Part shown: positions 3,567 through 4,023 of the stretch, one piece after another
Numbering within the stretch: position 1 is the first letter of the stretch
Layout of the letters: each line of letters opens with the position of its first letter
Assembly (NCBI GenBank): GCA_010909725.1
Contig: JAACMV010000019.1
Location: 558,001-622,000 of the forward strand
Direction of reading: 5' to 3'
DNA length: 64,000 nucleotides
DNA from: Picochlorum sp. 'celeri'
Taxonomy: Eukaryota; Chlorophyta; Trebouxiophyceae
The notes under the pieces: model-generated
The model's input: the letters and a program-made list of their open reading frames with translations, nothing else
The model's database searches: none
What the model was told of the DNA's origin: nothing
Made by a program: the position numbers and the translations under genes

Positions 3567-3839
3567 ATATGTAACGCTGCATGCGTGTGTGATGGTATTC
3601 TCACACAGGAGGTGATGTGCTGTGTGTTGTGGAATGATGAAATTCCATCCTCAACCAATTGCGTGGTTGGTTTTTGACCCCACCATGTTGTCCTACATGT
3701 ATATTGATGCACTATAGTCACGTATGGTACCTTTTACTTTGCTTTTTTTAACCTCTCTAGAGGTCGTATAAGCCAAAATGTGTTTTCGACCTGAATTAGT
3801 ACAGTCAAAAATTCGAATTTTCGCTCGCTGTCCCGTCTT

Positions 3840-3890
3840 GCTCACCCACAAAGGCCCTTTCCTATCGCGATAGGGCCTTTCAGGGTGAGC
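3840..3890 (+). repeat. 51-nt imperfect palindrome just upstream of the permuted tRNA
   Basis: GCTCACCC (3840-3847) pairs with GGGTGAGC (3883-3890), and AAAGGCCC (3850-3857) pairs with GGGCCTTT (3873-3880). The loop holds the perfect palindrome CCTATCGCGATAGG (3861-3874). Its right arm runs directly into the leader of the tRNA gene. Confidence 0.8.
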
Positions 3891-3913
3891 TGGTAGAGTG
3901 ATGGGTACGGAAC

Positions 3914-4008
3914 AGGGTGGGGTCGGGAGTTCGATTCTCTCCAGAAGCACGAAAAACATTCTACCTGACGCTTCTGTAGCTCAGTGGTCTTAGAGCATGC
4001 CCTTCGTA
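3914..4008 (+). tRNA. Circularly permuted tRNA-Thr (anticodon CGU)
   Basis: The 3' half lies upstream of the 5' half. The 3' half (3914-3949) has anticodon-stem strand GGGTG, variable loop GGGTC, T-stem GGGAG/CTCTC around loop TTCGATT, acceptor strand CAGAAGC and discriminator A. After a 20-nt spacer (3950-3969) comes the 5' half (3970-4008): acceptor strand GCTTCTG, TA, D-stem GCTC/GAGC around AGTGGTCTTA, anticodon stem TGCCC and loop TTCGTA. Joined at the 37/38 position, this gives a normal 75-nt cloverleaf with all seven acceptor pairs and anticodon CGU, reading ACG (Thr). Bases 4003-4011 can pair with 3903-3911, leaving a 3-nt bulge ACA (3912-3914) beside the anticodon stem, as expected for tRNA splicing endonuclease. 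The precursor would be spliced to a circle, then opened by RNase P and RNase Z. Such genes are known in red algae and prasinophytes. Confidence 0.9.
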
Positions 4009-4015
4009 CTCGAAC

Positions 4016-4023
4016 TTTTTTTT
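4016..4023 (+). terminator. RNA polymerase III terminator of the permuted tRNA gene
   Basis: Run of eight T residues starting 8 nt after the end of the tRNA 5' half. It is in the right place to end a Pol III precursor that contains both halves. Confidence 0.75.

Follow-up and report, generated by a model that had tools for sequence, protein, structure and literature searches.

Results

A tRNA-Thr(CGU) gene with its halves in reversed order

We analysed a 64-kb window of the Picochlorum genome (positions 558,001−622,000 of contig C19), which carries a permuted tRNA-Thr(CGU) gene at window positions 3914−4008 (Table 1). The 3′ half of the tRNA is encoded first and comprises the 3′ strand of the anticodon stem, the variable loop, the T-arm, the 3′ acceptor strand and the discriminator A. 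It is followed, after a short spacer, by the 5′ half, which holds the 5′ acceptor strand, the D-arm, the 5′ strand of the anticodon stem and the loop with the anticodon CGU. CCA is not encoded; the A at 3949 is directly followed by CGAAA. When joined between tRNA positions 37 and 38, the two halves form a 75-nt tRNA with a standard cloverleaf, in which 21 of 21 stem pairs are present, G-U counted (acceptor 7/7, D 4/4, anticodon 5/5, T 5/5), along with U8, U33, the T-loop TTCGATT and the discriminator A. ARAGORN reads this joined 75-mer as tRNA-Thr(cgt).

A first-pass annotation, made from the letters of the window alone, had proposed a permuted gene with the 3′ half in front, a 37/38 junction, a 20-nt spacer, a 75-nt cloverleaf, Thr(CGU) identity and a run of eight T's behind the 5′ half. 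The sequence, the pair counts and the ARAGORN reading support this reading of the locus, in gene type, junction and anticodon alike. The annotation also held that standard finders miss such genes, as indeed happened here: in genomic order ARAGORN reports no tRNA at 3914−4008, and no Rfam family passes its gathering cut-off anywhere in the window. Even at E values up to 10, the sole tRNA-clan match listed for positions 3800−4100 is a 6.8-bit piece of tmRNA. Neither ARAGORN nor RF00005 sees a linear tRNA gene in genomic order. The locus shows these properties of a type II permuted gene: 3′-before-5′ order, the junction motif, a spacer free of T4 runs with a T-stretch after the gene, and no CCA.

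Table 1. Features of the tRNA-Thr(CGU) locus and neighbouring genes (window positions; R1 and R2 are the covariance models described in the text)
Feature	Position	Strand	Evidence or remarks
Strong hairpin upstream of leader	3838−3892	+	60-nt stretch 3836−3895: −34 kcal/mol, z −6.6
Leader: strand of extended anticodon helix (3902−3911) and bulge bases	3902−3913	+	10 consecutive pairs; 9 in minimum-energy fold
tRNA-Thr(CGU) 3′ half, tRNA positions 38−73	3914−3949	+	36 nt, AGGGTG...AGAAGCA; R1 71.2 bits, R2 54.3 bits (3914−4008)
B-box-like T-loop sequence TTCGATTCT	3930−3938	+	upstream of A box, not downstream (sequence)
Spacer, acceptor 3′ end to 5′ end	3950−3969	+	20 nt, without T4 run (sequence)
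tRNA-Thr(CGU) 5′ half, tRNA positions 1−37	3970−4008	+	39 nt, GCTTCTG...TTCGTA
U33, anticodon CGU (4005−4007), A37	4004−4008	+	ARAGORN: cgt at base 36 of joined 75-mer
Predicted 5′ splice point	after 4008	+	junction 37/38
Trailer bases lengthening the helix with the leader	4009−4012	+	pairing count and minimum-energy fold
T8 run, predicted RNA polymerase III terminator	4016−4023	+	sequence; 7 nt after 5′ half
LRR protein	4234−4899	+	
LSM-domain protein	4971−5603	−	proline/glycine-rich repeat tail; adjoins LRR protein
Adenylate kinase	5971−6798		82% identical to Micractinium, 74% to Auxenochlorella

The same permuted gene is found on the homologous contig C11, where the body differs in none of the 75 positions. 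Since body and spacer are the same in both alleles, this locus alone gives no conservation signal. The hairpin upstream of the leader has one C fewer in the C11 allele, and its core motif is absent from the other loci that we fetched.

Covariance models of permuted tRNAs

The first-pass annotation had pointed to a permuted-tRNA covariance search as a check. We built two covariance models, R1 and R2, both describing a tRNA permuted at 37/38. The training set of R1 includes Thr(CGU) itself and a second permuted gene, Thr(AGU). R2 serves as the independent test: it was trained on 11 of this genome's linear tRNAs, none of them Thr, which were permuted in silico and given random linkers. In the whole 64-kb window R2 gives a single match, at 3914−4008, with an E value of 1.6e-17, which is rough because the calibration was short.

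Of the permuted genes described below, the 18 class I alleles reach 46−70 bits under R2, compared with 26−31 bits for the six class II alleles (Ser, Leu); halves of linear tRNAs reach up to 26.6 bits under R1. Since the class II genes (one Ser, two Leu) thus score little or no better than linear halves under these class I models, their identification comes from the joined ARAGORN reading and the pair counts.

At least twelve permuted tRNA genes in the genome

The genome that we searched comprises 27.41 Mb in 30 contigs, and the G+C content of the window is 43−49%; the Picochlorum celeri phased diploid assembly is described as 27.43 Mb in two sets of 15 scaffolds at 46% (PMC7225527, seen in part). 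A 401-nt query spanning the locus recovered Thr(AGU), and ten more genes came from D-arm pattern searches, 60 fetched stretches (one of them the Sen34 region) and a similarity search. In total we located at least 12 permuted genes (24 alleles), all breaking at 37/38: Thr(CGU) (C19/C11), Thr(AGU) (C18/C14), Thr(UGU) (C5/C20), Arg(CCU) (C3/C23), Tyr(GUA) (C4/C30), Val(AAC) and Val(CAC) (both C5/C20), Ala(CGC) (C10/C16), Ala(UGC) (C4/C30), and the class II genes Ser(GCU) (C15/C27), Leu(AAG) (C2/C22) and Leu(CAG) (C11/C19). The first-pass annotation had treated a single gene; beyond it stand these further genes and a host that is most likely a trebouxiophyte, not a prasinophyte or a red alga.

With the halves joined, ARAGORN assigns all 24 alleles the isotype and anticodon expected; in genomic order with 60-nt flanks it finds a tRNA in none of them. 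No allele lacks a pair in its acceptor, anticodon or T stem; the D stem has 4/4 pairs in 11 alleles and 3/4 in 13. Spacers range from 14 to 58 nt. The two permuted Val genes, CAC and AAC, are convergent and 246 bp apart (117−211 on the forward and 458−548 on the reverse strand of locus L072). Downstream of permuted Leu(AAG) lies a hairpin (L052, 481−538) that weakly matches a microRNA family, at 39.1 bits against a gathering cut-off of 90.

All searches and models addressed type II permutation (37/38), so that genes with other junction types could have been missed. One pattern search gave 76 sites, of which 12 fell in known genes, 10 were retrieved and the other 54 assessed by eye; another listed 100 of its 112 sites. 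Of two further pattern searches, one had three sites fetched and the other no new ones. The permuted models found no permuted gene in 20 further fetched loci; they matched weakly twice, and each of these matches was read as one half of a linear Pro allele (L098). Rfam at gathering cut-offs also returned nothing on 20 fetched loci. A search that recovered three permuted genes gave, in addition to them, a 16.6-bit match; by reading, it covers the 3′ half of a Pro gene that is linear (L073). At L053 and L058 (C4/C30) a Leu/Ser-like D-arm, resembling a 5′ half, begins at position 401 and is followed by a T-run; there is no 3′ half in the fetched bases, and this is possibly a further disrupted tRNA gene.

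A linear Thr(CGU) gene elsewhere had been named as the finding that would speak against a functional permuted gene. We were not able to find one: a genome search with the joined 75-mer at E values up to 10 matched nothing but the two permuted alleles, each by its two halves. An RF00005 scan of the genome, in which 63 of 866 candidates were scored, gave at least 34 matches that reduce by pairing to 18 loci. None of the 26 matches that we read is a Thr tRNA, and position and score mark the remaining eight as allelic partners. Together with Ser(UGA) in L051 and Pro(CGG) in L073, both identified by reading, this makes 20 linear loci, 10 of which contain introns by our reading; for L021 Arg(CCG), L024 Leu(CAA), L025 Pro(UGG) and L051, where ARAGORN placed the intron elsewhere, the anticodon loop was read by eye. 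In this incomplete census, permuted genes make up 12 of the 32 located loci, and 22 of the 32 are permuted or, by reading, intron-bearing.

The census located no gene for Cys, Gln, His, Gly(GCC) and Ala(AGC), among others. Plant-type probes for Ala-AGC, Arg-ACG, Cys, Gln, Gly-GCC, His, Met and Ser-AGA gave no match, and the matches of the similarity search came only from stretches of this genome used as probes. In seven open reading frames of the window, taken as continuous frames with no intron modelling, 51 of 3,710 codons are ACG.

Leader pairing at the junction

The first-pass annotation had also described a helix between the leader and the anticodon region, with a 3-nt bulge beside the anticodon stem. 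The helix and the size of the bulge hold up, and two registers are found. In the register originally described, an unbroken helix of 10 pairs joins the leader to the tRNA from position 32 onward, and the bulge is 3912−3914. In the minimum-energy fold of the precursor, the helix has 9 pairs (3902−3910 with 4004−4012) and U4003 pairs with A3914 instead of A3911, which moves the 3-nt bulge to 3911−3913. This fold keeps the acceptor stem and the D stem but lacks one of the five anticodon pairs, and a shifted, non-standard hairpin takes the place of the T-arm. In the minimum-energy fold of the joined 75-mer, too, a non-standard hairpin stands there.

Such pairing recurs across the set. Scoring positions 32−35 of the 12 genes against their own leaders at the 3-nt-bulge offset, we found 38 of 48 cells paired. 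With swapped leaders the mean was 26.7 of 48, and 38 or more occurred with a frequency of 5e-5 in 20,000 leader permutations; at the other five offsets the genes' own leaders paired in 14−24 of 48 cells. Single-gene helices are often short. An unbroken helix of at least 4 pairs from position 32 is present in 4 of the 12 genes (Thr CGU, Thr AGU, Tyr and Ala UGC), and Val CAC and Ser GCU have no unbroken pairs at this offset, Ser GCU having five pairs one base further out. Over the 12 genes, the junction pairing is specific to each gene.

Allele comparison and alternative readings

In ten of the genes no allelic difference falls within the tRNA body (0 of 754 columns), whereas spacers and 60-nt flanks together carry 33 in 1,502 columns (Fisher p 2e-6, with columns within a locus not independent). 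Flanks change in six of these ten genes; the other four loci are identical throughout. The two Ala genes diverge far more between alleles (L105/L106 and L107/L118) than the other ten, mainly in the D-arm and spacer: the bodies differ in 7 of 73 and 10 of 73 columns, and the spacers and flanks in 35 of 157 and 50 of 165. All the same, D-stem pairing is 4/4 in each allele of these two genes, except for 3/4 in the Ala(CGC) allele of C16, and some of the pairs have changed on both sides. Judged from these sequences, decay would not be expected to leave D-stem pairing kept despite such changes.

These comparisons bear on the possibility that the halves at 3914−4008 are unexpressed, decayed fragments of a tandem duplication, with the real linear Thr(CGU) gene elsewhere. 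Leftovers of this kind are predicted by the duplication-and-loss model (PMC3978253, a review seen in part), and the tRNA census is incomplete, with 63 of 866 candidates scored. The leader at 3875−3912 also aligns weakly to a tRNA 5′ half, as a relic of a lost outer copy might; we rejected this candidate as not significant, since 13 of 100 shuffles align equally well. Candidate 5′-half relics at the other genes fared no better, with at least 51 of 100 shuffles reaching the score of 11 leaders and at least 29 of 100 that of all 12 trailers. Against decay speak the 21 intact pairs, the lack of a linear copy in the search with the 75-nt query, the gene-specific junction pairing, and the existence of 12 intact genes, ten with bodies unchanged between alleles while flanks changed in six. 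We consider this explanation very unlikely.

Even less probable is a Y-RNA-like non-coding RNA of the YrlA type. Bacterial YrlA RNAs contain a permuted-tRNA-like domain. YrlA (RF02553) and permuted tmRNA (RF04321) are bacterial-type families, not tRNAs, and share with the Picochlorum genes a permuted tRNA-like fold. The Rfam YrlA model matches 3894−4022 at 31.1 bits (E 4.4e-5), with a shared layout in the alignment; two of ten further loci with permuted genes score 28.6 and 26.2 bits. All three scores are far below the gathering cut-off of 69. Also against this reading, the anticodon loop is complete, with U33, the anticodon is coherent, and 12 genes serve seven amino acids. RF04321 similarly scores 29.1 bits at L080, against a gathering cut-off of 47.

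Least probable of all, to the point of being negligible, is an assembly or chance artefact: the fold energy of the bare precursor is indeed unexceptional against shuffles (z −0.78), but the same arrangement stands on homologous contig C11 and in 24 alleles at 12 loci, and R2 detects it although Thr(CGU) was not in its training set.

The locus at 3914−4008 is thus almost certainly an intact type II permuted tRNA-Thr(CGU) gene, whose transcript is predicted to be circularised and reopened into an ordinary tRNA. It is probably the sole source of the threonine tRNA with anticodon CGU.

Predicted transcription and processing

In all 12 genes (one allele of each) the 5′ half is followed within 36 nt by the start of a run of four or more T's, and a TATA-like motif lies within 60 nt upstream in 7 of the 12. 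For Thr(CGU) there is no TATA-like motif in the 120 nt upstream, and hence none within 50 bp of the 3′ half. Such a motif precedes most of the permuted genes of the red alga Cyanidioschyzon merolae and is not required; for some green-algal genes, no more than an ambiguous AT-rich region is reported. Transcription by RNA polymerase III would begin upstream of the gene, with the inverted A and B boxes not serving in the usual way, and would end at the T8 run. The mode of transcription is the weakest link of the predicted pathway.

By analogy with the pathway of C. merolae and green algae, the Sen endonuclease would then cut after 3913 and after 4008, and tRNA ligase would close a circle of 95 nt by joining 4008 to 3914. 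Removal of the 20-nt spacer by RNase P and tRNase Z would open the circle at the acceptor stem, and CCA would be added to give an ordinary tRNA-Thr(CGU). Passages of the review PMC3978253 describe how the eukaryotic splicing endonuclease recognises the hBH motif at 37/38 together with anticodon-intron pairs, how leader and trailer stand in for the intron in permuted precursors, and how circular intermediates of algal permuted tRNAs were demonstrated by RT-PCR.

The genome encodes a Sen34-like gene, whose best PDB match is named Sen34 (E 2e-18), and a Sen2-like gene, whose best match is named Sen2 (E 3e-14). The tRNA ligase profile PF09511 gave no match, and neither did its positive control. 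The Sen2-like gene occurs at seven places with one score (C9, C12, C26 at base 1564, C10, C16, C21 and C25); six fetched 3.2-kb segments (L033−L038) are 99.3−100% identical to L033, and some lie near contig ends. These copies reflect either a recent duplication or assembly overlap.

Discussion

Permuted tRNA genes are known from Cyanidioschyzon and prasinophytes, as the first-pass annotation noted and as the review PMC3978253 documents; up to 2014 the review counts 34 such genes in six algae and one archaeon. Later papers, likewise seen in part, add further nucleomorphs (PMC4494063) and, in 2025, the trebouxiophyte Auxenochlorella (PMC12633428, PMC12636532). The kind of gene described here is therefore already known; what we have not found in print is its occurrence in Picochlorum, or a genome in which all the threonine tRNAs found are permuted. 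Among the matches listed for the open-licence literature, as far as these texts were available, none reports permuted tRNA genes in Picochlorum: the Auxenochlorella paper mentions Picochlorum in other contexts, and PMC13353863 has both terms in its reference list only.

One close likeness in organisation is to C. merolae, which according to the review passages (PMC3978253) shares with Picochlorum the 3′-first halves, the type II 37/38 junction, the downstream T-stretch and the missing CCA, and has spacers of 7−74 nt compared with 14−58 nt here. Its type II permuted genes likewise include Thr(CGT), Thr(AGT) and Leu(CAG) (Soma 2007/2013, via PMC3978253). We considered common ancestry of these Thr and Leu genes and rejected it, as the sharing of 3 of 5 type II anticodons is within chance (p 0.09−0.15). 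C. merolae is a red alga with four junction types, in which 11 of 43 tRNA genes are permuted (PMC3978253), whereas Picochlorum is a green alga in which the 12 genes located are all type II, the only type sought, and Thr(UGU) is permuted too. Its 12 genes exceed the 11 of C. merolae, the top count of the 2014 table in that review.

Within the green lineage, Ostreococcus and Micromonas, like the Bigelowiella nucleomorph, have nearly all their permuted genes of type II with the hBH motif (Maruyama 2010, via PMC3978253), and Ser(GCT) is permuted in M. pusilla as in Picochlorum. These genomes carry 2−6 permuted genes each, mostly Ser, Cys, Leu and iMet, and the green-algal and nucleomorph rows of the review table contain none for Thr, Ala, Val or Tyr (PMC3978253). 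Auxenochlorella UTEX 250-A belongs, like Picochlorum, to the Trebouxiophyceae, and in the portions seen of PMC12633428 and PMC12636532 its permuted genes were found after an incomplete tRNAscan-SE set. Standard finders can miss such genes, as the 0 of 24 alleles recognised by ARAGORN in genomic order illustrates, and the annotation of Picochlorum SENEW3 relied on tRNAscan-SE (PMC11092101, seen in part).

If the located set is representative, more than a third of the nuclear tRNA genes of this alga are permuted (12 of 32) and about two-thirds are permuted or intron-bearing (22 of 32), so that most decoding, including that of every threonine codon, would depend on tRNA splicing. With Thr(CGU), Thr(AGU) and Thr(UGU) all permuted, nuclear threonine decoding would depend on the circle pathway. 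We propose, with moderate confidence, that all nuclear threonine tRNAs (AGU, CGU and UGU) are permuted, that translation of ACN codons requires circular RNA, and that 12 of the 32 located would be the most permuted tRNA set known in any genome, in a fast-growing alga suited to testing why. The persistence of permuted tRNA genes, whether through selection, quality control or drift, would thereby become testable in a compact diploid alga.
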